DNA from: Polytrichum commune
Lineage: Eukaryota; Streptophyta; Polytrichopsida; Polytrichales; Polytrichaceae
Reading direction: 5' to 3'
Assembly (NCBI GenBank): GCA_950295325.1
Contig: OX485808.1
Location: forward strand, 33,004,527-33,068,526
Length of the DNA stretch: 64,000 bases
Shown here: in pieces, positions 6,216-54,360 of the stretch
How the letters are laid out: every line of letters begins with the position of its first letter
Numbering within the stretch: position 1 is the stretch's first letter
Notes under the pieces: model-generated
What the model saw: the letters and a program-made list of their open reading frames with translations, nothing else
The model's database searches: none
Told to the model about the DNA's origin: nothing
Translations under genes and position numbers: made by a program

Positions 6216-6425
6216 GAGCCAACCTACAAACAACCTAGATTCTTTTCAATGGACGGTGGCCACTCAAAATTCCCTTGTCATTACATGTACTGAGTCAGCA
6301 AGACAATATTCATATTGTTTTTTCCAATAAAAAGTGTTTTGTCATTCAGACTATATAGACTATGCACGGCTACCGCATGTTACTAGCAGCTTAGGCAGAA
6401 AATAATTATTTACAAGACTGCCTAA
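6216..6425 (+). terminator. 3' region of the transposase with poly(A) signal and hairpin
   Basis: AATAAAAAG at 6328 is a plausible poly(A) signal about 110 bp after the stop codon. Further on, TTAGGCAG (6391-6398) and CTGCCTAA (6418-6425) form an 8-bp inverted repeat that could be near the element end. I could not find convincing long terminal inverted repeats. Confidence 0.4.
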
Positions 6426-29559: not shown

Positions 29560-32500
29560 TTTTATTTGTTTTTAAGTAGAGTGGTATAATGTGGTTGAAT
29601 AAGATTTGAATGTGATATGTGGTTAGGGTGCTAGTTTGAGAGCTCCAAAGGGGGGCTTAGAGGTTGGCTATAGTTGAAATCCATTTGACTTTGCTTTCGG
29701 ACAGGGCTGAAGTGAGGGCTAGTATGGTTGGATTTTATGAATTTTCTGTTTAGGGTGCAAGTGGTAGAGCTCCAAAGGGAGGGCCATTGGCCTCTGTCGG
29801 ATCCGACAGCCCAAGGGTAGCCACCTTGGGGACCTCTCAAGTTTTTTTTTTTTGCTTCAATTTGGGCTGAGGTGAGGGCTGACGTGAGGGCTGGGATGGG
29901 TTTTTTTTTAAATTTCTAGCTAATGTGCTTGTGGGAGAGGGCTTAAGGGGCCTTAGATGTTGTCTTTTTGTTGAAATAGATTTGATTTTGATTATGGGCT
30001 CGGGTTGATGTGAGGGCTTGTATGGTTGTATTTTGTGAGATTTCTAGTTAGGGTTCAAATGAAAGAGCTGTGAAGGGGGGCTTGAGAGGTTAGTTCTGGT
30101 TGAAGAAGATTTGATTTTGATTATGGGTGAGGGCTGATGTGGGGGCTTAGAGGCTTGTTTTTAGTTGAAATTGATTTGATTTTGGATATGGATGAGGGCT
30201 GAGGTGAAGGCTTGTATGGTTTTAATTTCTGAATTTCTGGTTAGGGGGCTAATGAGAGAGGTTTGAAAGGAGGCTTAGAGGCTTGTTTTTAGTTGAAATT
30301 GATTTGATTTTGGATATGGATGAGGGCTGAGGTGAAGGCTTGTATGGTTTTAATTTTTGAATTTCTGGTTAGGGGGCTAATGAGAGAGGTTTGAAGGGGG
30401 GCTTAGAGGCTTGTTTTTTGTTAAAGGGCTGATGCGTGGGCTCGTATGGTTTTAATTTTTGAATTTCCGGTTAAGGTGCTAGTGGGAGAGCTCCAAAGGG
30501 AGGGCCCTAGGCCTCTGTCGGATCCGACACCCCATTGGAAGCCATCTTGGGGACCTCTCAATTTATTTATTTTGTTTCAATTTGGTCTCAGGTGAGGGCT
30601 GATGTGAGGGCTTGTATGGTTTTAATTTCTCAATTTTCTAGCTAAGGTGCTTGTGGGAGAGCTCCAAAGGGAGGGCCCTAGGCCTCTATCGGATCCGACA
30701 ACCCATTGGAAGCCATCTTGGGGACCTCTCAATTTATTTATTTTGTTTCAATTTGGTCTCAGGTCAGGGCTGAGGTGAGGGCTTGTATGGTTTTAATTTC
30801 TCAATTTTCTAGCTAAGGTGCTTGTGGGAGAGCTCCAAAGGGAGGGCCCTAGGCCTCTGTCGGATCCGACAACCCAGTGGAAGCCATCTTGGGGACCTCT
30901 CAATTTATTTATTTTGTTTCAATTTGGTCTCAGGTGAGGGCTGATGTGAGGGTTTGTATGGTTTTAATTTCTCAATTTTCTAGCTAAGGTGCTTGTGGGA
31001 GAGCTCCAAAGGGAGGGCCCTAGGCCTCTATCGGATCCGACAACCCATTGGAAGCCATCTTGGGGACCTCTCAATTTATTTATTTTGTTTCAATTTGGTC
31101 TCAGGTGAGGGTTGATGTGAGGGCTTGTATGGTTTTAATTTCTCAATTTTCTAGCTAAGGTGCTTGTGGGAGAGCTCCAAAGGGAGGGCCCTAGGCCTCT
31201 GTCGGATCCGACAACCCATTGGAAGCCATCTTGGGGACCTCTCAATTTATTTATTTTGTTTCAATTTGGTCTCAGGTGAGGGCTGATGTGAGGGCTTGTA
31301 TGGTTTTAGTTTCTCAATTTTCTAGCTAAGGTGCTTGTGGGAGAGCTCCAAAGGGAGGGCCCTAGGCTTCTGTCGGATCCGACAGCCCATTGGAAGCCAT
31401 CTTGGGGACCCAGCAGCTTCAGACCATCATAACTTTCTTGTATGATGTCTAATTTGAACAACCAACCACTCCATCTTCATCTACGCTTCACGTAGATGCC
31501 GATGGATCCCTCACTTGACCCATTCAGGCAAGTATTGACGACGTTATGCCTGTTTGAACCTTGGCAGTCCCGGGAATCACTCCCAGGCACTGCTGGACCA
31601 GGGCTCTGTCGGATCCGACAGCCCATTGGTGGCCACCTTGGGGTTCTCTCAAGATATTTTTTTTTGCTTCAATTTGGTATGGATGAGGGCTGAGGTGAGG
31701 GCTTGTATGGTTTTAATTTCTGAATTTTCTAGCTAAGGTGCTTGTGGGAGAGCTCCAAAGGGAGGGCCCTAGGCCTCTGTCGGATCTGACAGCCCATTGG
31801 AAGCCATCTTGGGGACCTCTCAATTTATTTATTTTGTTTCAATTTGGTCTCAGGTGAGGGCTGAGGTGAGGGCTTGTATGGTTTTTTTTCCAAATTTTCT
31901 AGCTAATGTGCTAGTGGGAGAGGGCTTAGGGAGCTTAGAGGTTTGTTGTTTGTTGAATTTGATTTGATTTTGCTTATGGTTGAGGGCTATTGTGAGGGCT
32001 TTCTGGGTTGTATTTTGTGAAATCTCGGGTTAGGGTGCTAATGAGAGAGGTTTGAAGGGGGCCTAAGAGGTTAGTTTTTAGTTGAAATTGATTTGATTTT
32101 GCTTTGAGAAAGGGCTGATGTGTGGGCTTGTTTTGTTTTATTTCGTGAATTTTCTGGTTAGGGGGCTAGTGGGAGAGGGCTTAGGGGGGCTTTGAGGTTT
32201 TCTTTTTGTTGAAATAGATTTGATTTAGCTTATGGGCTCGGGCAGATGTGAGGGCTTGGATGGTTTTTTTTTCTGGAATTTCTGGTTAAGATGCTAGTGG
32301 GAGAGCTTTGAAGGGGGGCTTAGAGGTTTGCTTTGGTTGAAATTGATTTGCCTTTGCTTATGGGTGAGGGCGGGTATGGTTTTTTTTAAATTTTCTAGCT
32401 AGTGTGCTAGTGGGAGCGGGCTGAAGTGATGGCTTGAGAGGTTTGTTTTAGTTGCAAATGATTTGACTTTGCTTTTGGGAGAGGTCAAATGGGTTCCCAC
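29560..32500 (+). repeat. Tandem repeat array with GTCGGATCCGAC palindromes, upstream of ParB-like gene 1
   Basis: The region consists of diverged units containing GAGGGCTTGTATGGTTTTAATTT and GGGAGAGCTCCAAAGGGAGGG. Six consecutive units repeat every 171 bp with palindromes CT(G/A)TCGGATCCGACA at 30515, 30686, 30857, 31028, 31199 and 31370. Further copies lie at 29794, 31606 and 31777. The centre GGATCC and flanks TCGGATCCGA are nearly invariant while the outer bases vary. No coding region is supported inside the array. Confidence 0.88.
31412..31605 (-). repeat. Fragment of the Gypsy LTR family embedded in the palindrome array
   Basis: This 194-bp piece matches part of inverted solo LTR C (around 26337-26530), from CAGCTT(T/C)AGACCATCATAACTT to CTGGACCAGGGC. 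Both joins fall at array sequence, and the right join lies exactly where the LTR palindrome (GCTGTCCCGG) would continue but GCTCTGTCGG of the array palindrome follows. Confidence 0.75.
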
Positions 32501-32595
32501 TTCGGAACCTTTTAAAGTGGTCATTCTTATGCATATTTTGTTCATTTGGCTGGTCTTCACCTTTGTATCTAATTGCTTCTCAGGAGATCATTGAG

Positions 32596-33872
32596 ATGGT
32601 GGGGGATGGAGAGTCTTTGGATGTTGGGGTTTGCAATGGTGCTAAGTCATCCCTTAGTGTTGAGGAGCATAAGGAGCAAGGGTCTCCGTTGTCACTTGCT
32701 GAAAATATTGGGCTTACACCAGGTAGTAGCGAACCCCATACACCCGGGATGCCACTCTGCGGCTCACCTGCAGAATCGGATGTCGGTGTTCGTGCAATGG
32801 AGTATCGGATTCGCTACAATTTAAAGAAAGATAGCTTCTCAGTTGTTGAGGGCATGAGGATACAACCGGTAGAAAAATCCTCTATGAGAATCCCCCTCTG
32901 CAGGTTGATTCACATGCCATTGGTTCGCCCAACCCTCCGCAGCGACGTTACAAAGCTCATGGCGGCATTTCAATTTGGATACCGAGCTGGGTCTGCCACT
33001 TTGTACGTGTCTACTACAAATGAGTCTGGAGATAATCGATTCATTTCTACGAAAGACAGGCGTGAATGGGGAGAGCTTTGGGTTGCAGAAAATGATAAGT
33101 TTGAGTTTTTCTACGCGCGGATAAGGACTTGATGAGCCTCAGTGGATGTATGTTCGTCGTGTATGATGGTAACCACCGCTTGCTTGCGTGGAAGGAGTGT
33201 ATCGAATCAGATCACAAGGACGATGCACTCTGGTATGAGAAGCATGGTTGCCCAGAATGTGTTGTCTTCGACACAACGGGTGGACGTGGGGACGTCCTTA
33301 ACGCAATGCACGACATCAACAAGTAAGTATGTTAGTTTTTCAAATCGTTTTTTCCTTCATTTTTTATTGGCATCTAATGGCATTTGTCTCAACCGCAACA
33401 GGGCTAACCAAACCGCTCACGTTAAAACTAGCCTCGTACACACTCTACACCGCATTCAAAAATACGGTTCGTATGATCTTAGCTACTACCAGCCATTATT
33501 GACCGAGGAGCAATTCCAAGCGTGCAAGAGCAGAGGCCCCAAGAGCCCTTGGTACCCGCTGACCCAAGACCTTATGGTGTCCTTCATTTTCAATGTAAGT
33601 CACTCCAAATTTCTCAACCTTCTACTTCGCATTCATTACTCTTAGTCATGATCTTACAATTTCAAATATATGTTCAGCAAAATATAGCCGATGCGGTAGA
33701 TGAGGCAGCCCAAATCTACAAGGAGGAAGTTCCTCCAGAGGAGCAATCTGGGAACCGGTTGGGTGAGGTATTGGACGCTGTGATTAAGAAGACGACTGAG
33801 GAACTTGGGCACAAGTTTAACAAACAACAATCAATCGCAAACCCCGCCCTTGAAAAACAGTTCCTAGAGGAG
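32596..33872 (+). pseudogene. ParB-like gene 1, truncated and frameshifted
   Basis: Exons 32596-33322, 33402-33594 and 33678-33872 are supported by GT-AG introns and by alignment with gene 2 (35539-39739). The start is the first ATG after the splice-like CTCAG at 32579-32583, and a leader exon is likely. IPLCRL...PLVRPT near 32900 and MFVVYDGNHRLLAWKECI at ~33150-33195 mark the ParB-like domain, with GNHR where ParB/Srx-fold proteins have G(E/Q)(R/H)R. A one-base frameshift lies near 33118, just before DKDLMSL. After exon LEKQFLEE a donor GTACGT follows, but no later exons are found; the palindrome array begins instead. Gene 1 thus lacks the methyltransferase-like half present in gene 2. Confidence 0.75.
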
Positions 33873-34700
33873 GTACGTTTTGGTTGAATTAAATTTGAAT
33901 GTCCTTATGGGAAAGGTCCTTATTGTTGAGGGCTATTGTGAAGGCTTCTATGGTTGTATTTTGTGAAATTTCAAGTTGGGGGGCTAATGAGAGAGCTTTG
34001 AAGGGGCGCTTAGAGGCTTCGAATTTGTTGAAATTGATTTGATTTTAGTTATGGATGAGGGCTGAGTTAAGGGCTTGTATGGTTTTAATTTTTGAATTTC
34101 TGGTTAGGGGGCTAATGAGAGAGGTTTGAAGGGGGGCTTAGAGGTTTGTTTTTTGTTAAATTTGATTTGATTTTTCTTTGCAAAAGGGCTGATGCGTGGG
34201 CTCGTATGGTTTTAATTTTTGAATTCCTGGTTAAGGTGCTAGTGGGAGAGCTCCAAAGGGAGGGCCCTGGGCCTCTGTCGGATCCGACAGCCCCAGGGTA
34301 GCCACCTTGGGGACCTCTCATGTTATTTTTTTTTTGCTTCAATTTGGTCTGAGGTGAGGGTTGGGATGGTTTTTTTTCGCATTTTCTAGCTAAGGTGCTT
34401 GTGGGGGAGGGCTTAGGGGGGCTTAGAGGTATTCATTTTGTTGAAATCGATTTGATTTAGCTTATTGTTGAGGGCTATTGTGAGGGCTTGTATGGTTGTA
34501 TTTTGAGAAATTTTTGGTTAGGGTGCTAACCAGAGAGGTTTGAAGGGGGCCTAAGAGGTTAGTTTTTAGTTGAAATAGATTTGATTTGAATGTGCTTATG
34601 GGAGAGGTCTCAAGTGAGGGCTTACTGCTAGCATTCTTTGCAGCATTTATGAGAATATATTCTCAAATTTACTTCGCCTTCTTTTTTTATTGCAAGTGTT
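33873..34700 (+). repeat. Array continuing downstream of gene 1
   Basis: The same repeat vocabulary as 29560-32500 resumes directly after the last recognisable donor site of gene 1, including one CTGTCGGATCCGACAG at 34275-34290. The array therefore lies in what would be an intron, or has replaced the 3' half of the gene. Confidence 0.75.
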
Positions 34701-34708
34701 TTTTGGAA

Positions 34709-35366
34709 GAGGCCTCAGATCCAAGGCCTCATTTTTGAGTCAGGTTGTGTGCTTGAAAAATGAAAATGTTAGGTTCATTTTTGAATTCTCTCGGCCATTT
34801 TCTGTAGTATGTATTTCATAAGGAGGGGCATTCGGAAGAGGCCTCGGATCCGAGGCCTCATTTTTGTGTCAAGGTATGTGCATGAAAAGTTAAAATGTTA
34901 TGTTCATTTTTGAATGCGCTTGGCCCTCTTGTTTTGGGTAGTGCATAAGTAGGTACTTTGTGAAGAGGCCTCGGATCCGAGGCCTCATTTTTGTGTCAAG
35001 GTATGTGCTTGAAAAATGAAAATCTTATGTTCATTTTCGAATCCTCTCGGCCTTCTTGTTTTGGGAAGTGAATAAGTATGTGTTTTGGGAAGAGGCCTCG
35101 GATCCGAGGCCTCATGTTTGTGTCAATTTTATGCTAGAAAAATCAAAATGTTATGTTCGTGTAAGATTGCTCTCGGCCTTCTTGTTTTGGGTACTACATG
35201 AGTAGGAGGTTTGTGAAGAGGCCTCGGATCCGAGGCCTCATTTTGGAGACAATGTATGTGCTTGAAAAGTCAAACTGCTATGTTCACATAAGATTTCTCT
35301 CGGCCTTTTTCTTTTGGGTAGTGCATAAGGAGGAGGTAGGAAAAGAGGCCTCGGATCCGAGGCCTC
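34709..35366 (+). repeat. Six-unit array of 22-bp palindromes upstream of ParB-like gene 2
   Basis: Arms GAGGCCTC flank GGATCC and are followed by the complement, 22 bp in all, at 34709, 34838, 34965, 35092, 35218 and 35345, with a ~127-bp period. Spacer text TTTGTGTCAAGGTATGTG and CTCTCGGCCTTCTTGTTTTG recurs. Five copies have perfect palindromes. The first has CA in place of CG on both sides, as CpG deamination would produce. The core TCGGATCCGA is the same as in the gene 1 palindromes. Confidence 0.93.
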
Positions 35367-35538: not shown

Positions 35539-38500
35539 ATGGACTCTTCACAGGTTGCGCAATCGCAACCCCAATCTGGAGAGGATGTTGTTCTTGCGGC
35601 CCCCGCGGTTGAAGTTGAAGCTGTGCAGGTTGAGAGTCTCAATTCGCAGGGCCCATTACAAGTAGAGGTGAGTTGGATAGTTGTTGAGTAATTTGTTGAG
35701 CAAGTTTTTTGAGTTCTAGCTTTCTAAGCATGGTTTTATTGTTTGTGTTTTTGTTAGGCTCTCGCAATGAGCGAAGATGCCGTTCAAGCAGTTGCCGACA
35801 CGGATCCCGTGGTGTGTGAGCTTGAGCTTCGGAAATCACAAAAGGAGGACTCCATTGGTGTTATCCAACGCCTCCGGATTAAGCCAACCTGTAAGTCCCG
35901 CTTATCCATTCCTTTGTGCCGCTTGAGAGCCCTCCCTCTCGTCCGTCCTATCAGTGAGGTTGAGGTGCAGCGCTTGGAATGTGAATTTGTAATGGGATAC
36001 CGAGAGGGTGATCGGGTTCTTTACGTGTCTTCTTTCAACGACGTTCCCGTGGACCTCCCCATTCCCCCTGGCATTATGGCCTCTTGGAGCCCTCTCTGGC
36101 AAGAGGCCTCCGCAGAATTTGACGCCAAGCTCAAGGAGGATCCGGATCTTGCACATTTCGCCGGGAAGATGTTCTTCGTCTGGGAAGGCAATCATCGTCT
36201 CACCGCTTGGTGGAGACACATCAATAACCACCACGCCGATGACAAGAGTTGGCATATCTCGGTGGATTGCATTGTTGTTGACCCTAGAGGATACACCGGT
36301 GTATTCCTCAATGCCATGAGCGACATTAATTGGCAAGCTCATTCATTTTTTTCATTCATTTTTTATTTTTGTTTCAATTCTTTTCCATTCTTTTCACCTC
36401 ACGTTCCTCACATATTTTTTCTCAGGTCAACCGAGGATGATTATGTCAAGGCAAACATTCCGGCCAAGCTCCTTCGAATCCGCACTTTTGGGAGGTTAGA
36501 GTTGTCCACCTTCAAGGATCTTATATCGCCATCTGACTACAAAGCATGCGAGAAGATAAAGGAGAGTCGCCCAACTTGGTACACCTTGACCGCGGATATG
36601 TTCGTTAAGTTTCTTTACAAGGTATGGTTTTATGCATTCAATCATTTAGAGCTTCCAACATAGATAATTTCCATGCCGATTATATGAACTCACAAGGTCA
36701 TTTCTTGCAGAGAGACATTTCGGCTCAAGCAGACCTTGCAGTGAGGCATTACCGTGAGACCACACCCGTTGCGGAGAGGTCGGCCACTGAGATTTGGAAT
36801 GTTATGACCAAGGCCCAGGAGAGAACAATCAAAAGTATTCGGGCCCGTTCTTTTGAGAAGTACATATCCGTTGCACACCCTGACAATGGAGAGGATTTCT
36901 TTCATGAGGTACTCTTTTGAACTCAAATCACTCTTGAACGCAATTCATCCAAATCACTCTTCAATTCTATTACTCTTTTGAACTCAAATCATTTTTATTT
37001 TGTGCACAGATTGACCGTCATTTTAATGAGTTCTCTTCGACGGACATGACAATTGAAAAATTATAAAAAATTGTCACATGCCCGGTCGAAGCTTCGTTCA
37101 AAGCTAAGTGGCTTCACTGGTGGAACGCCCCCCTTTGTGAAAGGTTAGATAACAAGTTCCCCGTCGACAAGCCTATGAGGGAGAGGGCTTTGGACGACTG
37201 GCTACACAAGGCGTCCTTCTGGGCTCAAGTAAATCCATTCCTCGGCCTTCTTCATTTTCATTTTCCTCTATTCCATTTATCTCATATCTAATCATCTCAT
37301 TCTCTGCAGTTGGAGAAAGAAGTCGCGGTTGAAATTGAGACCTTAGAGGAGAGCCTCTCCGTCGACATTGATTGGGACGCATCAGAAACTATCTTGCGCC
37401 CTCGTGAGTACGTTGATCATTGGCGGATTGTCCTTTGGGACAAGGCCTTCAAGCCTTATCTCGGCGATAAGCCTGACATCGCATTTGCCAAAGGTGATAA
37501 TCTCTTGGAGTTCGAGGAGGGGGCTCTCGCTATCAAGCGTGTGGCCTATCGGTAATACATCTATCCTCCACTTTGCACCTCTCCTTAATGTCATTTCTTG
37601 CTCGTTTTGTTGGTTTTCTTACATTCTTGTTTTGTCATGTAGGTATATCATGAGAGAATTGGTTGTGAAGAATGCATTGGCCTCATCTTCCTTGCCGGAC
37701 TACCTCTCGGACTGGGTGAATATTTTTTCTAGCCTCTGCGTGTACACGACCGCGCAAACAAACAAGTTTTCCGAATTGCACTTGCAGGGTGGTGGATGGT
37801 ACTTGGATTGTGCTGCAAGATTTGTCCCCGGGGAAGAGAAGGCTTTGTTTGCTAGCCTTGTGGGTAGTGCTCTGGATAATAACATTGTTACCTTGGAAGA
37901 GCCTGACATCGTTGAGCTTCCCCCTCCTCCTCCTAAGGCACCAAGAAGAAAGGGCAGAGCAAAGAAGACCGCCACTCAAGCATCTTCCCAAATTCTCACT
38001 CGGTCTGCTTCTAAGACCCCGGTTGAGCCACCCACCCTTCCACACAGTCCATCTATCGCTCCCTCCGTTGCTCCCTCTCTTGCCCCCTCTGTTACTCCAT
38101 CTGCATTTCATCCACAATCTTTTGCCACTCCATCTCACAGTGGCACTTCTCTCCTCTCTTTGCCTCGCAAGAGGAAGGCCGCTCTCTTGGATACCAGTGC
38201 CACCTCTTCGGATGCCCCTAACATGCTTACCCTCATCGAAAATATGGACATGGTTCAACTAATGCTGGATTCCGAGGTTGCCGGAGGTCCCCTCCCCGCA
38301 TATATCCGCATCCAAGAGTTCATTGCCAAGGTTTGTATACTTGCCTTCTTCAATTCTCAATTTTTTTTCCTTTGCTTTGTTTATTTCTTTCCTTCTTGTT
38401 TTCTCATGAAGTTTCAATTGCAGGTTGGGGCAGGTCGTTCCCATGTGAACACCTCGACTACAATTCACAAGGGCCTCGATTTGCTCTTCGCCGACATTCC

Positions 38501-39739
38501 CGAGAATTTGCCGGTGCCGAACATCTCCACCGATGTTCCTGCTTGGAACAAGCTCCATGAATCATACTATGAGTGTCTTTTTGCATTTGCGAAATCTAAC
38601 CTCTATGATCATGGTGTCCTTGTTCTTGCCCATTGTGCGAGTGCCAGTGTTTCTAGGAGTATTTTCGATTGGGCACACACTTATGACTTCTACGTCGCGG
38701 AAGATTGGTTTGGAATGAATGATTTAGACCTCCAATCTCCCGTTGTTCCCTCTGGAGTGGTAAGCAAGTCTCCCTCTCTTCCCCTTCCGTATTACTTATC
38801 ATTTCAATTTCAATTCAATTTCAATTCCATTTCATTTCAATTCAATTTCATTTTCATTGTTGCAGACTCGGAAGTTCAACATCAAAGTTCTTGTTCGTGT
38901 TAACTCCGTTCTTAGAGTGCGGGAGGAGGCCATACAAGAGTATGGTTACAACCTCCAACGAGATGGATGGTTGAATACCTTCACCGATGAGAAGAGCCAG
39001 ACGATGCGCAGTGATGGGGTACCTTGGCGAGGTGCCCGTGAGAAGCATCCTGTTTTTTTTTCCATCCTTCTCGCTACTCTCACCGACAAGAATGATGTTA
39101 TTATGGACTGGCAGTGTGGTGTAGGTACGCCTTCTTTTTCAACTTCATCCTTACTTTGAATTTTCTATTATTTTTCCTTGACTAGTTTTCATACTAACAT
39201 TTTACCTCTCTTTGCTTTAGGTGGTTCGATTACAGCATGTCGCTCCCTTGAGCGGCATATTGTGGCCCTTGAGAGTGACCCCGTCATTTTCAATTCACTC
39301 CTACTCCCCATGCGCGATCCCCAGCCTGCGCGTATATCTCGCTCAGTTGCCGCACCGTCTACATCTATCTTTGATCCTCCTCAAAAGATGACCAAGAGGG
39401 CATTCGGATTCCTTTGTGCGTAAGTTTGCTTTCTATATTTTGCCATGTTTGCCTTGATTTCAAATTCTCATTTTCTAGTGTCATCATGTTTCTAATCATT
39501 TTGCTTGGGTGTTTAGAGAGCCAGCGGAGGTCGCAGTCATTCGTTGAGACATGTTTTCAAGTCCTCCGAAGCCGTTTGAGCTTCCCCCGTATGCTAGTGC
39601 AATGGCGGATTGTTTTGCGAAGGCGGAGTCCCCATCTCCTCCTCGCGTTCGTCATTTCTCGCGTGGAACACGAAATCTTTTCTTGTTAGAAGCAAATGAG
39701 GGTGAGGAGAGTGATAGGGAATGTTCTCCAAGCCCTTAG
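35539..39739 (+). pseudogene. ParB-like gene 2: ParB-like domain plus DNA methyltransferase-like C-terminus, 11 exons
   Basis: Exons: 35539-35667, 35758-36332, 36426-36621, 36711-36908, 37010-37228, 37310-37551, 37643-38330, 38424-38759, 38866-39124, 39221-39419, 39517-39739. All joins keep phase (about 1087 codons). The second intron uses a GC donor (TG/GCAAGC). Residues ~60-215 form a ParB-like domain with WEGNHRLTAW at 185-194. Residues ~640-720 are Pro/Ser-rich with a basic PRRKGRAKK. Residues 766-970 resemble amino-type DNA methyltransferases: LDLLFADIPEN (767-777) sits where DPPY is expected, and EKHP...DWQCGVGGS (942-950) with ALESDP (963-968) matches the SAM-binding region. In-frame stops TAA (37064) and TGA (39545) interrupt otherwise good exons. 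A catalytic DPPY is absent, so methylation is unproven. Confidence 0.78.
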
Positions 39740-39800: not shown

Positions 39801-40752
39801 AGTTGTGTGTTGGTTTTATTTTTGATATCCGGCGCAAGTTTCATTCTTTCTCTCCATTATTTCATATTCATATGTCAACCCGCATTGCATTCTTTATTTT
39901 TTCTTCATCGTTCGGATCTCTTAACTTCTAGTCACAAAACAATCTAGCTCTCGGCTCTTAGTGTGAGATCTTAGTTATAGGGGGACCATACTTTCTATTA
40001 GTGTGGATGGTTTATTTTATGGTTGTGCACACTAATCACATTGGCCGTCTTCCAATCCCAATTGCTATATAGCAATTGGAAGTTTTGTTTGGCACGCGAA
40101 CATAACCTCGTCAAACTTTTTAAATTGAACTTCATGTTGTTCTCAAAGAGCCGGCACGTCACCTCAAAAATTTCCAAGAGGATTCTAAGGTTGGACTTGG
40201 GGGATTTGTCTTTGAGGTCTTTGGCTAAGCTAAGGACTGAATTGGAAGGCTGTTATGGTGCGACGGAGTTTTATGGCATGTTCTTTGGATCATTTTACCC
40301 ATATTGGACATGCCCGGCAGATAGGGTGTAGATGGCCCTAAACTAGAGTATATAGTTATTTTAACTAACTACCCATTTTTGTAAGTCTTGAGGTTGGCTA
40401 CATTTTGTTGACCAATAAAATATTTTGTGTATGGTATTTTGATTTCAATTTGGTGACGTCAGCCCTAATTTAATATGATACATTTGAAAACATATACTAT
40501 AAGATGTTTGATAACAAATGCAATCTTCCACGCCTATAGGATCCGTTGGTTTCTCAAACAATTATGGGTTATTATGTCCACGGGAATGGGGGTACCTTTC
40601 CAAATATAGAATTCAAACTATCTCTAATTCCACGGAAATAGGCACTGCTTCTCCTAAAATTACCCAACAAAATCTAAATTTTCCGCTCTCCGCTCTCCGC
40701 TCTCCGCTCTACGCTCACATACTTGAGTTTCCCCATAGGAGACCATAGCAAA
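39801..40752. other. Intergenic stretch with a CTCCGCTCT microsatellite
   Basis: No gene is supported; an ORF at 40023-40331 has no recognisable motif. At 40683-40722 CCGCTCTCCGCTCT repeats end in CTACGCTCACATAC, shared with 6933-6981. Confidence 0.45.
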
Positions 40753-42720: not shown

Positions 42721-42740
42721 TTTGGGTCGACCGACCCAAA
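42721..42740. repeat. Palindrome just after the stop of gene M
   Basis: TTTGGGTCG-AC-CGACCCAAA, 11 bp beyond the stop codon of the minus-strand gene. Its arms match the intron palindromes; the 2-bp spacer differs. Confidence 0.9.
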
Positions 42741-42949
42741 CTGAGTGGGGTCAGTTCATTACCTCGCCTTGGTCGTGCCTTGCCGCCGTTGATGCCGGCA
42801 TCGCGTGCGCTGCCCCACCTCTATCACCGCCGCCGCCTCCGACGACGACGTGAGCCGCAACCTGCTCCTGCAAAGGCAGACTGTCAGGCCCTTGCGGGCC
42901 TTCAACATCTAGCATGGGCTCGTCCATAGGGGTCTGATCGGGGACGAGG

Positions 42950-42969
42950 TTTGGGTCGGCCGACCCAAA
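42950..42969. repeat. Palindrome inside the coding region of gene M
   Basis: TTTGGGTCG-GC-CGACCCAAA. On the minus strand it encodes part of GFGSADPNL, so here the palindrome is translated, not intronic. Confidence 0.85.
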
Positions 42970-44218
42970 CCCTACTGCTTGGCGAGGGTCGCTCTGGGAC
43001 GCTGCAACGTCGGCACTATTTGGGTCGTCCCGCTGGTGGTGTGGGGGCAAGAGGATGGGAGGCCGAAGCGTCGGGGGTGCCAACGAGCTGGAAGCTTCTG
43101 GGACGCGCCAAAGGTTGGGGTCGTCCACCTGCTGGACGGGCGCGTAAGGGCGGGCGTGAGGCTGCAGCAAATGCCCGAAGCTGAAGGACTGCTGCGGCGT
43201 GGGCCGCGGGCCGATATCCAGTGGAGGGAAGCCTGCGGGCAAGTGAGGGAATGAACTCGGGGGAGCCATCACCAATCCATGCGCCAGCATGCCCTGGATC
43301 ACTTGCGTGATCAGGTCCGCTTGGGACGGAGGTTGGGCCATCGCCCTTTGCCGCTCCTGCTCCAACAGGAGAGCCCTCAACTCCGCGACTTCGTTGCGGA
43401 CCGAGGGCTCCTCGGCGGCGCCTTTTGCAATCGGACGCACTGCTCCTCGTCCCGGAGCATCTTCGCATTGGCCTCCTCCACGGTGAGGACCTCGGGTTTC
43501 ACCCTCACATTCCCAGCGAACGCTGTGGGGGAGGCAGGATCCGACCTCAGCCTCTTCGCGAGCTCCATGTCGTCCTCGTCCTCGGAGCTTATGGCGATCG
43601 TCTCCTCCACCGCATAATCGCTATATAATTTTTTCCCCTTCAGCATTCGCCGCTCCCTGAAGGTGGCCGTCGCGTCCCTCGAATACATGTCCTTCGCGTC
43701 GGCCACCGTGAGGACGGGCACTAGCTTGCTCTGCGGCGTGGCAGCCCGCATGGCCTTCTTCCGCTGAGGGGCCTCGGATTCTTGAGTGAATCCTGTTGCC
43801 CCTTCCTCCACCTCCCCCTCCACTTTTTCTGCTTCCTCCTCCTCCTCCTCTTCCTCCCCCTCCTCCTCTTCCTCGCCACCTGCTCCCATTGACGGATTGC
43901 CCGGGTGCAACCCGATGAGCGGTTCTGGCAATTGAATGGGGGCCCACATGGCGAATTCACCCAGGTTGATTCGCCTAGCCATATCCAACGGGTTCTCGCC
44001 CCCTTCGACGATCTCTTCGACGTAGGATCCGGGTATCCAGTCGAGGATGTCCATTCTCTTCGCCAGAGCCTTCTGGGTCCTGTAGAATTGAACATCGGCA
44101 TCCTCCACATAGGAGTAGATGTTCAACCCAGACATCTGCACAATCCAATTCAATAGTATTAGTATCACCAATGAAGAATAAGGAAAAATGACACCCAAAA
44201 CAAAACAATAATAGTTAG

Positions 44219-44344
44219 TTTGGGTCGCTCGACCCAAACAATGCATGCCCTAGTTTGGGTCGCTCGACCCAAACAATGCATGCCCTAGTTTGGGTCGCTC
44301 GACCCAAACTGAGCGTGCCCCTAGTTTGGGTCGCCCGACCCAAA
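44219..44344. repeat. Four palindromes in intron 2 of gene M
   Basis: TTTGGGTCG-CT-CGACCCAAA at 44219, 44254 and 44289, and the CC-spacer form at 44325, about every 35 bp, joined by CAATGCATGCCCTAG. They lie in the intron 44136-44378 that splits the methyltransferase-like motif. Confidence 0.93.
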
Positions 44345-45758
44345 CCGTCCATATAGTTCCTTCAGGTTATTTGCTTACCATGGCTGCGAAAACCGGTTTG
44401 GAGCCCCCGAAGACATTGAAAATGCAGTCCCCTCTCTTCGTGAGGGTCCTCATCATCCGCAGGTAGAACTCCATGCGCAGCTCATCCGCGGGGTAGTTGG
44501 CGTACTTCGCCTCGTCGTACAAGCTTCTGCTGGAGCCCAACCCTTCTTGGACTTGGAAGAGCTTCTCCATCCTAGCTATGGGATGGTTTGGCACCTTAAG
44601 CAGCTCAGCTTTGTACATGAAGTACAAGCACAACACATTGACGATCTTCGTCTTCTTGTCTTTCAGCGTGTTGTACGCCCCCTCCGCTGGTGCAGCAACG
44701 TAGTGAGATTTTGAGACGGCGTACTCTGGCTGCAATTTCCGCACGATCTCGTACACCTGCTCTGCCCTCCTGTCCTCGACAATCCACAGCCAGACGTCGA
44801 CCTCCCTGAATTTGGGGCTGCCGTAATCCACAAACTTCGTGAAGAACGGCTCGTAGAACGGGGTGCTCATTGTCCCCTCGAATGAGGCTCTAGGGATGTT
44901 CTTGAAGTCTATCATTCCGAAGGGGAAGCGGTCCCCGGCTTTTGTCCTGATAGCCTTCCTGGCATCAGAGCCCGGCCAGCCTTGGATCTAAAGAGGATCG
45001 ACGGTGACCAAGTTGAAGTAGGCGTTGCCCTCGAAGCTGATGATCTTCTTCTCCTTTATAAAGTTGGAGAAGGTACGCGTGGAGTGTTTGGGAAGCGCCC
45101 GGTTCCTCCCCCCCTTCACAAGCTTGGACTTCAGGAAGTTGTCTCCCGCCTCCCTCATGAGTGCCGCCATGGACGCACTGGTGAACTTGTAGTCGGCTTT
45201 GAATGCCCTCCAGTGCGCCTCGTCGACCTCTCCATCCACTATGAGCTTCTTCTCCGGCACCAGCTTGTGCAGCTCTTGGACGATGGTCGTCTTCTTCTTC
45301 CTGTTCTCCGTCCATTCCTTCATGGTGTAGCATGAAGGGACGAAGATCTTTGGCTTCGTGAAGACGATCTTCGGGTGAATCCAACATCTCTTCGCTGTCG
45401 GCTGCACGTGGAGGATGTGGGACGCCGCCTTTCCCATCTCTGTCTCCGAGAGACCTTGAAGAGCTCTAAAGAACTCCCTCACCAGAGGCTTCATTTGCTT
45501 GAAGCGCGCAGTCTGGTTGAAGAGCATGCCGGTGTCAGGATCCATGAGGTCCCCCGTCTCGTGTTTCTCGAAAACACTCTTCCATCTCCCCCACACGGAA
45601 TCAGACGCTGTGATCAAATAAATTTCTCCTCTTAGCTCGTTGTACTTCTTCTGCTTGTGGGAAGCGTTGTCAATCGAGGAGAATTTGTTGATCATCTGGT
45701 ATTTGAAGTCCTGCACATGAAGTAAATAACACACGTTAAAAAACTACGAATGCAAGAG

Positions 45759-45835
45759 TTTGGGTCGATCGACCCAAACTATAAACCTGACGAGGATGTT
45801 TAAACAATGCAAGAGTTTGGGTCGATCGACCCAAA
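45759..45835. repeat. Two palindromes in intron 1 of gene M
   Basis: TTTGGGTCGATCGACCCAAA at 45759-45778 and 45816-45835, in the same 57-bp unit as the four-copy array at 7202-7392. Intron 45711-45844. Confidence 0.93.
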
Positions 45836-47170
45836 CATACTCACCTCCCATTTGGGGTTCTTGTCTTTAGCATTCTCCCTTTCCTTGGGAGGCCTGCCGT
45901 AAAACTCCCACACCTTCCTCGAGGCCATGATGTTCCGAATCCACGATGTCTGGTACGCCCTCTTCTTGTTCCCCATGTTGAAGAAGCGTGAGATGTCGGT
46001 TATTACGGTCTCGTTGTCAGACCAAACCACCAATGCCTTCCACACCTTTAGCTTCTCCTTTTGGTTATTGGGGTCGTCCCACTCGGTCATCAGCAGAATT
46101 TTTTTAGAGGCCTCCACACTGTGCTGGCCGTCAATCAGCCAGAAGTCGCCTTTGCATATTGCCGGCCACATTTCAGGCGTCGGCATTCTCTTCAGCCCTT
46201 GGGGCATGACAACAATTGTGTGCCTGTCATCTTTGAATTGCCCTCCCAAGATCTGAGCAACCATCCAGTCGACGTAGGTGTCCTTCTTGGCTCGGACACA
46301 CTTCTTAGGTGGCGCAAGGTGGCACTGTGCAATGTTCACCTCGAACTTGAAGTCCCTGCCCATGAAGAAGCAATGCAGGCACTTCGTCTCGAAGTTATCA
46401 TTGATTTTCTGTATCTTGCCTGCATCCACCTCTTGGCTAGGTTTCGGCATCCGCAGCTCCGGGGAAACTGGCTCGGTGGTCATGACGGAGGACTCTCTTG
46501 CCCTCTTCGACGGGGTCGTCTGCCGGCTTGCGGACGGTGTGGGCGTCTCGTTGTCAGCCGGCGTTCCTGTAGTGCTAGTCCGTCTGGAGTCTGCAGGGAC
46601 CGGACGCAGCTTCCTCACAGTTTGGGGTCTGGACGACCCTGCGCCTTCTTCCGTCGTTGCCTTACGCCTCACAGGCTGCTGCGTTTTGGCTTTGCTTTGC
46701 AGCGCCTTGTTGAGGACCGTGATAGCCTGTTTCAATTTTGTAAACCTACTTGCAACCTTCGTGTTGGTTACATTGCCATCTATGAATATGGCCTCCGGTT
46801 TAATTGTCTCAGGATCCACGCGTGTCTCCTTGGCGTAGATGGTGTCGAATGACTCGGAGAATTGGTGCATGAACATGTGGGCGTTCTGCACGGCGGAGTT
46901 CTCGAGAATTACATCCACGTAATTCCCGAGGGCTTGGACGGACGCAACCTCCCGACCTGTCAACGTTGTCCAAGTGTGGTTCTTGTGGGTCCCTACTTTT
47001 ACCACGAACAGGAGCTTGAACTGGGAGCCCTTTACAACCTGAACTGACCACGCAAGGACGAGCCCATCCTTGGGCACGTATGAGTCGTCCTGGGGAGTTT
47101 CATACTCCTGCCATATTACGTCTGACGCGAGCATAAAGAACCTTTCTCCAGGTCTCTTCTTGGGGGCCAT

Positions 47171-47640
47171 CTGTAAGTCCAAAAATTGAAACTATTAGTT
47201 TCGGTCGATCGACCCAAAGTAGTCGACAATGCATTTAACATTTGGTGGAAATGGAACAAATGTATTTTATTGACCATCCCGAATTCAAGGTTTGGGTCGA
47301 TCGCCCGAAACCTTGAACACTTGGTGGCTCGTGCTCCTTGTGTGCTGAAATAGACCTATGATGGTTCCTCGTTAGAGAGTTTGTTTGTATTGGTATAATA
47401 TATGTGTATGTACATGATTTCATCAATTTCAATTATGGGCATCTGAAGGATTCTTTGATACTTTTCTTGTTCAGACGTCGTGTTTGGGTCGGGCGACCCA
47501 AACATGAGGCTTTGTTTTGGGTTTAGGTTCACAAACATGTGGCTTTCTTTAGGGGTCAGGGTCCCAAAATGAGGACATGTTTAGGTCGAACGACCCAAAC
47601 AAGAGCCTGTGTTTGGGTCGATCGACCCAAACAGTATTAT
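47171..47640. repeat. Five palindromes upstream of gene M
   Basis: Copies at 47199 (one mismatch), 47291 (two mismatches), 47483 (spacer GG), 47580 (spacer AA, one mismatch) and 47612 (spacer AT, perfect). The region upstream of the ATG is likely leader or leader intron. Confidence 0.85.
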
Positions 47641-47817
47641 TTTAATATATTTTTTAAACTTGGCATGAAGCATATACAATGCTTATGCGTTGTGTATGCT
47701 ACAAACCATGAATTAACCATCGCACATTGTGGATATAAGAAAACACAATACCTTTCAAAGATGTGTTGCAGACACTTTGGAGTAGATCTGGTTCTGTGGC
47801 TTCCAAACAATTATAAA

Positions 47818-48180
47818 CTCTCTCAAACAACTCTTGAATCTCTCAACTAACTCCTGAATCTCTGAACCAACTCCTGAACCTCTCAACCAACTCCTGAATC
47901 TCACACACAACTACAATACCTCTGAAATGAATTCGAAATCTCTCAAGCACTCCTTAAACAACACAAACTCCCAAAACCTCAAAGATATAACCACTCCTGA
48001 ATCTCACAAAAACTGCTGAATCTATCAAACAAACCTAAAACAACACAAACTCACAAAACCTGCACCTCACAAACACTCCTGAATCTCACAAGAACTCCTG
48101 GACACTCTTCCAACTCTCTTCCAACACTCTTCCAACACTTTCCAACACTCTTGAACAGTCTTCTACTAACTTCCTTCACC
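47818..48180. repeat. Diverged short tandem repeats (CTCCTGAATCTC)
   Basis: Many imperfect copies of AACTCCTGAATCTCTCAACC-like units of about 20 bp, then CTCTTCCAACA repeats. No coding potential. Confidence 0.75.
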
Positions 48181-48540
48181 CTCACGCCCTAAAACCTTCC
48201 TCCGTGTGTTTCTGGTTTTTTCTAAACTCTTCCTAACTTCAAAGGTTGCAGAAGTGCTATTCTATTGTTCTCGCAAGAGAAAGGAGAGAAATAGAAGAAG
48301 GAAAAACAAGCAAAATGCGGAGGAAAGCGATCTAAAAGCTACGCCCAGCCTGAATCGCCACGCCGCTTCGCGAAAGCGGCGCTTCAGGAGAGGCGGCGCT
48401 TCCAAACGAGGCGCGGAGCGTATGCTTGGCGCGGAGAGAAAGAGAGAAAGAACAAAAATTTGTGACGGTTGGGGTTTTGTTTGCCTCGGGAATTGGCCCC
48501 CAACCGCATGAATAGGGTGCCCACAGGATTAGGGCACCCA
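48181..48540. other. Non-coding stretch with a near-palindromic hairpin
   Basis: CGCCGCTTCGCGAAAGCGGCG at about 48361-48380 is a near-perfect inverted repeat, followed by GCGGCGCTTCC repeats. An open frame here is basic and motif-free; I do not call it a gene. Confidence 0.4.
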
Positions 48541-51500
48541 CGGGAATAGGGATATAGGGAACCCTAAATCCTAAATTCTAAAGCCCGACTCTAAACCCTT
48601 AGCGGGCCTACCTCTTTAAAAAGGCATAGGCTATTTCCCTCATGGCATAGGTTGCATACTACAATATCAAATTTTTGTAAGTTGAAAACCTTTTGAGCCT
48701 TTAAGTTACCCGCCAATTGCCTTCAAAACTAATTTTTAGTAGGTTAAAATCCTTCATATCTTTTAATGTTGTAGGTTTTAAATTCAAAATTTGAGTACTA
48801 AGTCGTATCCTTGGCAGGAATTAAACCTGGCTAAGCCTTTCACCACGTTTGAAGGCCAAGGATTAACCATCTGTTTTTTAAAGCGTTGATTATAAGTTAT
48901 GAAAGGTTGCTAAAGTTCAAATGAGTTCAAGGGTGAAAGTCCTCACCATCTTCTGATTCAACCTCTACTCTTCCTAAGATATAGCCTAAAGATATGTACT
49001 TAGGCCAACTAATTTCCCAATTTGAAGAAGGATGAATGGCCAAAATCCTCTCTTTTAAACAAATTGTATGTAAAATTTCCTACATGTTTTTTATCACAGG
49101 TTGATATCCTATGTTCTTAAATTGTGCATAGGCTCTTTGTCCTACACTTTCAAAATTTTATAGGCTAAGTCACTTAATATTTTTTAGGCTGCATTTGTAT
49201 TAATCACTTTATTCGTTAATTTGTGATGGTTTAGGTAGGACAACCCAAACATTAGACTATGTTGTTGTGGTCCTACAATAAATATGGTTCTAAGCCCTTG
49301 AAATAATTGGATGACTTTATGGTTATATTCTCAAACCTAAGTTTGATCCAAGACTTCATGTATAACTCTACTATGATGTATAAAATGGCCCCCACCCCCA
49401 CCTCGCATCCCACCAAAGCTTTTGTACAAGTTTCTCAAGATTTCAATCCCTTGTGCTTGTGATCATTTCCTAATCCACTAGACTATTTTCGGTACCCTTA
49501 GTGTGGGTTACCATTCGGAGCTACACATTTCTGTAACATTTAATAGAAAGTATTTTTTTCATCCAAATAACATAAGTAGGTAGTATGCACACGAAAGATT
49601 ATGATCTGACTTAGTTGGTAAAAAACGATAATGTCGGTAAAAAGTTATAGCAAGACATAATTATGAAGTGCACAAGTGCACCTCTCGTTCATCCAACATA
49701 AAGCCCTTAAATAGTATGTAACTTGAACTCTGGAGTACACTAAGGTGCTACATAAAATGTGTTATTCTACAAAACTAACCATTTATATAGCCAATGCATT
49801 CTTACAACAAAACTTTATGCTAAACTAATACTTAACCCCTACTTACATGACACCATACCCTAAATTTTCCAAACACATTGAAGGCATTGGTTTCTCTTTT
49901 GTTTGACCATGTTAGGAAAACCATACAATTGCGTGATATTTAACGATGTAATCATTGACATTTAGACTTTACCAATGATGCCAACAACTCACACGATATT
50001 GAATGAATAAGAAAAAAGGTCCCACACCCCCCAACATGTGGAACAATTTAGAATACTTGAGTGTAGAGCCTATTAAATGAATACCTTCTCCAACTGCATT
50101 TTGTAAGGGTTTTGAAATGCATGATCCTTATTTGAAAATACTAACATGCTCAAGTTTTAAGTACATCCCTGAGATCGTGACTTTGATGAATCGCAGAGTC
50201 GCCAATAAACCATGGTTCACGATATATTTAATATATAGATTATGATATAAGAGTAAATCGGAGAAGCACAACATGAAATGAAGCCATTCAAGCAATCATG
50301 TTGTTATTCATTGTTCCCTCCATGTATATTAGATGATGGCGCAAGATAAAATATATGTTGTTTGTATATGGGGGCATCAGTGAACCACAACTACATTTGG
50401 TGTTTAGGGTTTAGGGTTTAGGGTTTAGGAGATAGGGTTATAACATATTAATCTATCCAATGTCAATGTATAACATTGTCTTACTCGTGAGAAGAGTCTT
50501 ATAGGAAGGTTATAGTGAAGACGATCTTGATTATGTTAATTTGTTATTTGAGACGTTTAAACGTGATATATTGATTGGTCTTGTGTTTATTCAAATAACA
50601 TGAAATATTGTGGATGTTAATAGGGGTTAGGGGTCCAACTTTGGATGTTTCGCTCACTTTAGGGAATCACATAGTCGCTAATAAACCATCGTTCATGATG
50701 TATTTAATATATGGAATGTGATGTAAACGTAAATCGGAGAAGCACAACATCATGTTGTTATTCATTGTTCTCTCCACGTGTATTAGATAATGGAGGAAGA
50801 TATAACAGATATTGTTTGCATAATATGAAGAAGAGTCTAATCGGAAGGTCATAGTAAATACAATCTTGATCATGTTAATATGTTATATGGGACGTTTAAA
50901 CATGATATCCTAATTGGTTTTGTATTTAGTCAATACGTATTTCATGTTGTGGATGTTTTAAGGGTTTAGGGTCCAATTTTGGATGTTTTGCTCTCACACA
51001 TTAGTAAACTTGAAGTGAACTTGAGGATGGATTCAAGTAACATTAAAAGATTGAACTAAAAAGGGACATTGGTAGTTAGTATCCCCTTAACAACGTCCAC
51101 ATACGTTCGTCATTGCCACACTTGCATGCGAGATAATAGAGCAAGGTTCTAGGGTTTAGGGTTTAGGGGAGACAAATAAATAATTCTATTCATCATGACA
51201 ATGGCCTCAAGCCTTGGAAACTCTCTCATAATTGCAGCCTCCAAATGGCCCAAACCCCACTTAAATAGGTTTACACTTGAAAGCATTGAATGGAGTTGTG
51301 TTCGGGTCCACATATTGGTTAAAATATACCGTCATGATACTTGAAAAAATTAATGTGGCCGCCACCCTTCCTCCCAATGGCGTATGACATATCCACACAA
51401 AATAAAAAAACCAGATTAAATATCATAGACTAAGTCATATGACGGCTGGGGTATGAGAGGGGCATTGATAGATGCGCATTTTCTACAATAAACAAAAAAC

Positions 51501-51650
51501 GGGGAATTATGTCAAGAGGTTTGAAATAATCTCTGCAAGAGTAGAAGGCGGGAAATGCATCCAATGACTAAGTCTGGGAAGCGGAGGTGGATAGTATAAA
51601 AGGGCGCACCCCCCAAAAGTCGGTCATTTTTTTCTCTTCTCCCGCTGTTG
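48541..51650. other. AT-rich gene-poor region with a tandem duplication
   Basis: No gene is supported. Two diverged copies of one segment follow each other at about 50193-50655 and 50662-50993 (shared AATAAACCAT(G/C)GTTCA(C/T)GAT, GTAAATCGGAGAAGCACAAC and GGACGTTTAAACATGATAT-like strings). Short TTTAGGG runs lie at 50402-50429 and 51151-51167. Confidence 0.6.
50402..50429 (+). repeat. Interstitial telomere-type repeat
   Basis: Four consecutive TTTAGGG-type units, the plant telomere repeat, in an AT-rich region. Too short to be a telomere. Confidence 0.85.
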
Positions 51651-51908
51651 AATTCGTAGGGAGAACTCTTAATCGGAGTTGTACTTAAAGGTTCGTGCTT
51701 GCTGCCGTTCATGAGCACTTTTTCCACAGCATGCAAGTTCATGAGCACCTATCCACAGCATGCAAGCCCACTGTGAACTTTGCAATGAGCTCAAATTCAA
51801 CACACCTCGCAATATCCTCCGCATTATACGCCGGATTTTGTGGATTTTGTGGTGTATTATTAACCTTTCCACTAGTGTTGGCGGGTTTTGAATCTGATCC
51901 TTATGAGG

Positions 51909-52181
51909 TTTGGGTCGGTCGACCCAAACCCCTCCACTACTGTTTAGGGTTTTTGTCTGACCCTGATGAAGTTTGGGTCGACTGATCCAAACTTGTCCAC
52001 TAGTGTTTAGGGTTTCAGTCTGACCCTTATCAGGTTTGGGTTGGTCGACCCAAACCCCTACCCCGGTGTATTAGAATTTCATCCTCACCCTTATCAGGTT
52101 TGGGTCGGTCGACCCAAACCCCTACCGCAGCTTGGGCGGCTGTAGGTTGACCATGAGAAGGTTTGGGTCGGTTGACCCAAA
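51909..52181. repeat. Five palindromes upstream of the DUF7869-type gene
   Basis: TTTGGGTCG-GT-CGACCCAAA at 51909 and 52100 are perfect in the arms; 52035 and 52162 have one arm mismatch, and 51972 has an AC spacer and mismatches. Units repeat every ~62 bp with TCTGACCCTTATCAGG between. Confidence 0.9.
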
Positions 52182-52382: not shown

Positions 52383-54360
52383 ATGGAGGGAGTAGGTGGA
52401 AGAGGGGATTCCTTCTTTGAAGACATGGGCAACACCCAATCTTCGTCTGGGGATGAGTTAGACATTGTCAGGGAGGATAGTTTTGATGACAGTGCAGATG
52501 AAGGTCATTTGGGGAGTCCTTCGCCATCTGCCCATTTTGCCCCATTGTGGAATGTGCGGGGCTTTCACGAGCTTCATGGGTGAATTTGGATGTGGTACTT
52601 GTTAATGACAATGGAGTTGTTGTGGCGAAGGGTATTTGTCGTAACACACATCCACAAGATTGCATTGATGAAAACCCCCTTGGCACCGAGGACGTTGGAG
52701 TTGTTATATTGGAATCACTCCTACATTCCGAAGTGAATCCAACTCATAGGTTCTCGTTGCGAAGGTGGCCGTTGAGGAATGTGACAATTGATGGGGTTAA
52801 TTTGCATGAGCATGAGCGACGACACATCCAAATCCAACACGAGTTCCAAGCAAACATTAGGCCACGCAAAGGCCTACGAGAGTACGATACATTGGCACGT
52901 CCTATTCTGTCGGCAAATGAGTGTAAACGTCAAAGGTTGCTCTGTGAGGAGTCTATTAGAGAAGTTGTCACAAAGGATTGTTGTGTACAACGTTGTTGCC
53001 AATTGTTCCCAAGGGATAAATTGAAGGCCATCTGCGAAGAAATGTGGCTTGGAGATTTCCGTCTAAGATCCACCAAAAAGCTTGATGTCCATAGGACGAT
53101 ACATGTGAACGGAGCGGGTCGCAAGGTCATCACCCTTGAAAGCATAGACATGTGTTGTACGGCATGGTACACCATTCACGGTGTGTCGAAAGCGGAATTT
53201 CATAGACAAGCCGCATATGCCAAGGAAGGCCGATGTTCCCGTCACCATGGGAACACGGCTTAAAGAAACCAAGGGAAGCAACGAGACAAGCAACAACCAC
53301 TCTAGCAACCATCATTGTCCCCCTTGCCGATGCAATGCCGCACAAAACACGCACACTTTCAACCGGTGAAAAGGTTGTGGAGAAGGTTCTTCTTACAGGC
53401 ACGAAATGGAAAGACATATTGTTGGACGTAAACGCAGTTGGCGAGAAGGCTGGGTTGGACCCTATTTCGTTGTCGAAACTGAGTGCAATAAAAAAATCTC
53501 ACTTTAGCGAATACATCACAAAAAGACGAGGCGACAAATTTGCCCGTTGTTCCAAATACGAGAAGTTGAAACGCCTTCGAGATGCACACACGATGGGGAC
53601 AGAGTCCTATGCCGCACATCAAATGAACTATTTCAAGCATATGAACATGCAAGAGGCACACCGTAATGATTACTACACAAATAGAGCTTTGTCCATCTCT
53701 AGGCCTTTGGAGGTCCTTACAATCATCCATGACAAAATGGACCATGCCAAAACAGCCTCACCATGTTTTGCAAATCGAATAAAAGCCACGGACGGCCTTT
53801 TTAAGCCTCCTGTATCGGTTACAGGTGATTTCGATAACAATTGCATTGCATTATCTAAACACAAATTTGTGCTTTTAGGTTACTTGGGGCCATAGATGTA
53901 CACCATGTGAATTTTTTGGTGTTATAGTTAAATATTAAACCATTGGGTTGGCTTTGCAGGGATGATTGCACATGGACATGGTGATGTCAAGTATGCTCAT
54001 TATGCTCTCGATTTGTATCCGGCGGATTCAAACTACACGATAGGGTCATTTGCAAAGCTTTTACGTGATTTGGAGAAACCGCCGTCCTATTCATCAAGAT
54101 TGTTATTTGAAAACTCGGGATCAACACCTCTATATGAAGCGGTCTTGAATGAAAGAGATGTATGCGTGCATTCATTGCCGGAGCCACCAAGTGAAGATGT
54201 GATTGCCAAGAATTTGCTCCCAACTCTGCATGTCCAATTGGACAATTGTGCGAAGGACAATAAAAGTAGATATGTTTTTGCATATTGGTCGTTATTGGTT
54301 GCGAAAGGCATCTTCATAGAGGTTTTTGTGTCCTTTCTATTGGTAGGCCACACGCAGTAA
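52383..54360 (+). pseudogene. DUF7869-type, transposase-like gene with frameshifts
   Basis: Start at the ATG at 52383 after a splice-like GTGTGTAG. An acidic Ser-rich N-terminus leads to a frameshift near 52553. The frame of CAGLSRASWVNLDVVLV continues to about 53256, where a second one-base shift occurs; then the frame runs to a GT-AG intron (53879-53959) and on to 54360. Diagnostic words are CCVQRCCQLFPRD, DMCCTAWYTIHGVSKAEF, and near the end VQLDNCAKDNKSRYVFAYW and FVSFLLVGHT. From family memory these match a widespread protein containing DUF7869, in which GHT is followed by an acidic HEDID-type motif; here a stop codon follows at GHTQ. I infer a transposase-like role, not proven. Confidence 0.65.

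Follow-up and report, generated by a model that had tools for sequence, protein, structure and literature searches.

A ParB/methyltransferase-like accessory gene of a moss DNA transposon and its family-specific palindrome arrays

Closest described systems

In the brown alga Ectocarpus, the transposon Sola1-1_Ec32 carries an accessory gene encoding a protein with a ParB-like domain and a DNA methyltransferase (Dinatale et al. 2025, PMC12477816, in a passage that cites Iyer 2011 and Petroll 2025). Here we describe a comparable gene in the moss Polytrichum commune. It lies in a stretch of 64,000 nucleotides (hereafter the window; C6:33004527-33068526 of the 407.8-Mb genome), encodes ParB-like and methyltransferase-like domains, and serves as accessory gene in a DNA transposon of 14-17 kb, in which short palindromes form arrays. 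We refer to it as family 1 (the window gene being subfamily 1a); a second gene family of the same kind, family 2, is also present in the window.

The moss protein resembles the algal one, as that passage presents it, in joining a ParB-like domain and an N4-methylcytosine/N6-methyladenine (N4mC/N6mA) methyltransferase domain in a single protein of about 1100 residues, and in being encoded within a large DNA transposon on the strand opposite the transposase. Sola1-1_Ec32 differs in its Sola1 transposase and its brown algal host, and the passage on it does not mention palindrome arrays, whereas the moss elements have either target duplications of 9 bp together with a SWIM-like transposase gene, or a DUF7869 gene, and show an altered DPPY motif and family-specific palindrome arrays. 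A reading of this DNA from the sequence only was aware of no such family described in plants. The kind of gene is in fact known, because ParB-methyltransferase fusions have been reported in the Ectocarpus transposon (PMC12477816). Among the full-text matches listed, which include few subscription papers, we found no cognate palindrome arrays, no altered motif and no Mutator-like or DUF7869 carriers, and the passages checked in PMC12636532 mention no ParB. As far as searched, the cognate arrays, the altered motif and the two other transposon classes appear to be new.

The other close parallel is VANC, the anti-silencing system of Arabidopsis VANDAL transposons. The sections of the papers concerned describe VANC21 motifs as dynamic and tandemly repeated, both within introns and upstream of the VANDAL transposase gene, with numbers that vary between copies (PMC5735166), and VANC21 as leading to loss of DNA methylation (PMC5735166; PMC10398659). 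Both systems, on these accounts, comprise a transposon-borne accessory protein and short family-specific motifs in tandem repeats, located in introns or upstream, with related proteins having different motifs; repeat number also differs between copies in both VANC elements and moss family-1 arrays. In the moss, 1a has its arrays upstream of the gene; subfamily 1c has them there and within an intron as well, and in family 2 they occur both within introns and beyond the gene. The shared trait is one of motif anatomy, a family-specific motif repeated in tandem in its own element. VANC proteins have DUF1985/DUF287 and non-palindromic motifs of 8-9 bp, whereas the moss proteins have ParB/Srx and methyltransferase folds and palindromes of 16-22 bp; neither DUF was found in the 1023 family-1 residues scanned by Pfam, up to an expect value (E) of 1. 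Binding and demethylation are established for VANC; binding and a defence against silencing are predicted for the moss system.

The moss protein differs from bacterial ParB, Noc and KorB, with their parS-type palindromes, by its fusion to a methyltransferase-like domain. With beta-class methyltransferases (CcrM, M.BceJIV, DpnA) it shares the fold in family 2 and the motif X/I region in family 1. These enzymes carry DPPY, whereas motif IV reads DIPEN in family 1 and DFRNIPG in family 2.

The family-1 gene and its transposon

Copies of the family-1 gene are numerous and similar. In a search with exon-2 DNA, all of the best 40 of 116 candidates matched at 98-100% identity (window included), and with the exon-2 protein all of the best 150 of 1280 candidates matched, at identities from 100% down to 60%. 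Ten family-1 copies (c01 to c10) were fetched with 20 kb around each, and the left side was extended for five. All ten end on the right in a heptad array followed by GCTCACATACTTGA(A/G)TTTC; the flanks beyond start differently in each copy, and some share repeats further out. Both ends and 9-bp target duplications are clear in c05 and c07 (GTGTAAATC, CTCGGGTGG), two of the five copies examined; both are probable in c10, in satellite-like flanks, and in c03 and c04 no left end was found. The three delimited elements measure about 14.2, 16.2 and 16.7 kb. The window copy retains just 34702-40733 of the element.

The left half of c05 contains a transposase-like gene on the minus strand; its first part and the gene at window positions 2268-4580 share 53% identity, and homology extends to this gene in seven of the nine other fetched copies (all except c01 and c08). 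Further along, the window gene matches a SWIM finger, under the cutoff (E 0.0023, 17.9 bits, cutoff 19.6). In the corresponding stretch of the c05 gene the CxC...CxH pattern is kept by eye and Pfam finds no SWIM finger, and the Pfam transposase profiles gave no match to the transposase-like gene. Target duplications of 9 bp are typical of Mutator-like elements (MULEs), and from these duplications together with the SWIM-like finger we infer that the family-1 element is Mutator-like.

The sequence-only reading had assembled the gene from 11 phase-compatible exons, and this model holds. All 11 exons join in phase, with a GC donor (GC-AG) at intron 2, and the joins are supported by other copies that keep the same frame, which is frameshift-free in 6 of the 10 fetched copies and completely open in 2. 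The motifs it quoted are likewise present: WEGNHRLTAW near residue 185, LDLLFADIPEN from residue 767, EKHP, ALESDP, and DWQCGVGGS across the join of exons 9 and 10 (DWQCGVG/GS). That join is supported by a relative with 66% identity in exon 2, whose exons 9 and 10 form a single uninterrupted stretch that contains the junction and one stop. Missed at that time were in-frame stops at residues 385 and 1024 of the window copy, which is broken; an intact reading of this copy was dropped on account of the two stops. The proposal of a fusion turned intron-rich gene family with at least three members needs amending in two respects. The intron-rich gene is real, but it is a transposon accessory gene and not an ordinary gene family, and the number was too low, as the window itself holds two family-1 and two family-2 copies and the genome many more.

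The expected ParB/Srx match around WEGNHRLTAW is borne out by the predicted fold of exon 2; in family 2, the ParB-like assignment is by motif (DGQHS) alone. The methyltransferase claim stands in part. A beta-class methyltransferase fold is predicted for family 2, and the family-1 region is assigned by sequence, from weak, concordant matches to DpnA in the PDB (E 0.006), a PHROG family (E 0.0017), a CcrM model (E 0.0035) and PF01555 (E 0.11). A two-sequence profile reached DpnA at E 0.08. Profiles A2 and A3 retrieved nothing relevant from PDB sequences. The whole 1023-residue family-1 model matched no Pfam family up to E 1 and none of 5.8 billion proteins; single exons or uninterrupted pieces used as queries instead gave 488 and 53 protein matches. 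No relatives were confirmed in scans of IMG/VR and GTDB (84, 68 and 84 pattern matches, unconfirmed). When family-1 and family-2 profiles were compared, neither domain was significant, and the methyltransferase alignment was in register at motif X/I.

The canonical catalytic motif of N6/N4 methyltransferases is (D/N/S)PP(Y/F/W), for example DPPY, and neither family has it. DIPEN occupies this position in 1a and in the 1c relative. In family 2, the D, F, R, P and G of DFRNIPG are each conserved in at least 90% of 54 sequences, and the window copy reads DFKNIPR. Between 1a and 1c, the ratio of nonsynonymous to synonymous divergence (dN/dS) comes to 0.19 for exon 8 and 0.17 for exons 9-10. The low ratios combined with the altered DPPY argue that the methyltransferase-like domain is under selection, yet probably does not function in the standard manner; given the altered motif, catalysis may have been lost.

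Synonymous sites of the ParB exon are saturated between 1a and 1c (proportion of synonymous differences, pS, 0.89; of nonsynonymous differences, pN, 0.19), whereas pS in the methyltransferase exons is 0.31 and 0.37. This lower synonymous divergence suggests mosaic genes, with a more recent exchange between subfamilies for the methyltransferase half than for the ParB half.

Family-specific palindromes and a second carrier

Perfect palindromes of at least 16 bp number 23 in the window; ten Markov-resampled sequences had 0-3 each. The 10 fetched copies all have longer 1a arrays than the window copy. Across these 11 copies, 334 sites with up to 6 mismatches to GAGGCCTCGGATCCGAGGCCTC have a mean identity of 99.2%, and 86% of them are exact. 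Control 22-mers of the same 127-bp unit, taken every 4 bases without overlapping the palindrome as a guard against picking sites by similarity, reach 80-92% identity with 6-37% exact. Each fetched copy holds 19-47 instances of the 14-bp core of the 1a site (305 in total), always left of the gene and never inside it or to its right, and the arrays sit between the two divergent genes of the element. The one degenerate 1a site in the window departs from the palindrome by G-to-A at both of its CpGs; this would agree with a connection to methylation but is no proof of it.

The palindromes of relatives are given here in order of exon-2 identity. The 87% relative has AGAGGCCTCGGATCCGAGGCCTCT three times plus two shorter sites, and the 79% relative has GAGCCCTCGGATCCGAGGCCTC six times among nine related sites; in the 72% relative the 1a palindrome itself is found twice. 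The 66% relative, which represents 1c, has nine copies of CCTCTCG-N4-CGAGAGG, eight with an ATTC centre, upstream and in an intron. A single perfect AATCCCACGGATCCGTGGGATT occurs in the 60% relative, with no tandem array within 1.5 kb, and the 38% relative (subfamily 1b) has CTGTCGGATCCGACAG and variants at ten sites. All listed subfamilies contain the core CGGATCCG except the 66% relative, which has CG-N4-CG, and the arms vary between subfamilies. The 72% relative indicates that the arms need not change along with the protein.

Family 2 has its own palindrome, TTTGGGTCG-NN-CGACCCAAA, found 66 times in 12 loci (2-9 per locus), two of which are the window copies. With up to 3 mismatches it occurs at 23 places in the window, including four at 7202-7392. 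The arms are kept (mean 0.94, including the variable central two bases) and the flanks look random (0.41-0.42). Some sites lie inside gene introns (7201-7402, 45757-45836) and others outside the gene. Counts of the 1a, 1b, 1c and family-2 palindromes are 305/0/0/2 in 1a loci, 0/0/9/0 in 1c loci and 0/0/0/66 in family-2 loci, so that no 1a, 1b or 1c site appears in loci of other families in this cross-count, made without a 1b locus. The two family-2 sites counted in 1a loci fall beyond the right end of the c05 element, beside a piece of a family-2 gene.

The carrier of family 2 is different. We compared the best 40 of 416 family-2 candidates with the best 40 of 874 DUF7869 candidates, and in 13 of the 40 (window included) a DUF7869 gene lies 8.2-15.4 kb from the family-2 gene, divergently in all 13. 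Random placement gave a mean of 0.18 such links and a maximum of 3 in 2000 trials. The remaining 27 family-2 matches had no DUF7869 partner within 20 kb among the best 40 scored. No ends could be located for the family-2 element. The same kind of accessory gene is thus carried by two different kinds of element, which have a similar layout of divergent genes with palindromes between them.

Coordinates of these features are collected in Table 1. A family-1-type right end is also present at about 6981 (6935-6990), within the truncated family-2 gene copy and together with the transposase-like gene. Beside the family-2 region, a NIF/CTD-phosphatase-like open reading frame at 41438-42289 (minus strand; PF03031, E 2.2e-14) may be a further accessory gene of the family-2 element. 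At 21592-22542, 22723-23697 and 25854-26825 (minus strand) lies a repeat of about 970 bp that carries a perfect 24-bp palindrome, GGGCGCTGTCCCGGGACAGCGCCC, also found inside an insertion of about 970 bp in c04; this repeat may be a non-autonomous element bearing the site of a third family. The window further contains a tandem array at 10904-11825 (120-bp unit, 7.7 copies, 95% matches), a Copia-type polyprotein in a single long frame at 15346-18438 (plus strand), and four TTTAGGG-type telomere-like repeats at 50402-50429, which agree weakly with a host of the green lineage.

Table 1. Positions of the accessory genes, palindromes and associated features in the window
Feature	Position	Strand	Remarks
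Family-1 (subfamily 1a) ParB/methyltransferase-like gene	35539..39739	+	1088 codons in 11 exons; window copy has two in-frame stops
Exons 1-6	35539-35667, 35758-36332, 36426-36621, 36711-36908, 37010-37228, 37310-37551	+	
Exons 7-11	37643-38330, 38424-38759, 38866-39124, 39221-39419, 39517-39739	+	
Exon 2, ParB/Srx-like domain (WEGNHRLTAW box)	35758..36332	+	Predicted fold
Exons 8-10, N6/N4-methyltransferase-like domain	38424..39419	+	Weak sequence matches; DIPEN replaces DPPY; DWQCGVGGS is motif I
Tandem array, ~127-bp unit, GAGGCCTCGGATCCGAGGCCTC palindromes	34701..35366	+	Upstream of gene; 5 exact, 1 with 2 mismatches
Right end of family-1 transposon, TCCGCTC heptads then GCTCACATACTTGAGTTTCCC	40682..40733	+	Common to 10 fetched copies, small changes
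Degraded subfamily-1b paralog	32467..33884	+	38% identical in aligned part of exon 2
Tandem arrays around 1b, CTGTCGGATCCGACAG palindromes	29794..34290	+	10 sites, up to 2 mismatches
SWIM-finger transposase-like gene	2268..6981	+	First part 53% identical to c05 gene
Family-2 gene	44370..47191	-	DGQHS ParB-like region 45803-47191; methyltransferase fold 44370-45743; one in-frame TAG
Truncated second copy of the family-2 gene	6986..8319	+	92-94% identical protein
Family-2 palindromes TTTGGGTCG-NN-CGACCCAAA, scattered and in short arrays	42721..52181		19 sites, up to 3 mismatches
DUF7869 gene pieces, divergent partner of family-2 gene	52502..54357	+	PF25273, E 2.5e-22

Proposed role and alternatives

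The predicted ParB fold suggests that the ParB-like half binds the palindromes of its own element, arrayed between the two divergent genes, from which it would perhaps spread as bacterial ParB does, perhaps in a nucleotide-gated manner. The bound protein would mark the element as self and counter host silencing, a role suggested by the parallel with VANC; alternatively, it could make the array accessible to transcription and transposition. For the methyltransferase-like half, binding of S-adenosylmethionine or a role as a platform would be more likely than methylation. We lean, with slightly better than even confidence, towards palindrome binding by the ParB-like half that marks the transposon as self, probably against silencing, in the manner of VANC.

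The protein could instead be a catalytically active N6-adenine or N4-cytosine methyltransferase. Having bound the palindromes, it would methylate the transposon that encodes it, and the methyl mark would signal self or give protection. We regard this as unlikely, since DIPEN replaces DPPY in 1a and 1c and DFRNIPG stands in its place in family 2, and since the centre of the 1c palindrome is ATTC and that of the family-2 palindrome any two bases. The location of the family-1 arrays between divergent genes, and of scattered sites between the family-2 and DUF7869 genes, would fit a transposition factor or repressor that bridges the element, regulates divergent promoters or limits copy number, with silencing uninvolved. 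Against such a role are the sites inside the introns of family-2 genes and of the 1c relative, and up to 47 sites are many for a simple operator; we give it a similarly small chance.

A further possibility is that these are host genes, captured from a bacterium or phage, used by the cell and merely duplicated by transposons. Their many introns and the purifying selection on them agree with this. The copies are nevertheless near-identical and lie inside elements with ends, target duplications and a transposase-like neighbour, and no single-copy host ortholog was seen among the best candidates scored in this genome. We consider a host gene family highly improbable and rejected it on copy number, element ends and transposase linkage.

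Self-marking by a palindrome-bound protein can also be put in a broader form, which we advance more tentatively, as a possibility that may well prove wrong. A prokaryotic-type ParB/parS-like module would have been made into a self-recognition system by unrelated eukaryotic transposons; a clamp with a non-catalytic methyltransferase would load on the palindromes of its family, spread and exclude silencing; and arms and protein would co-evolve, leaving every family to serve itself alone, a convergence with VANC.

How transposons evade silencing without releasing it elsewhere in the genome is still an open question, to which, as far as we are aware, VANC is one well-studied plant answer. The moss elements offer a second candidate, built of bacterial-type parts, with putative targets that can be read from the sequence and that have changed between subfamilies. 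If binding occurs as predicted, they would provide a set of proteins of differing specificity for palindromes of 16-22 bp, and a case of ParB-type DNA marking on eukaryotic chromosomes.

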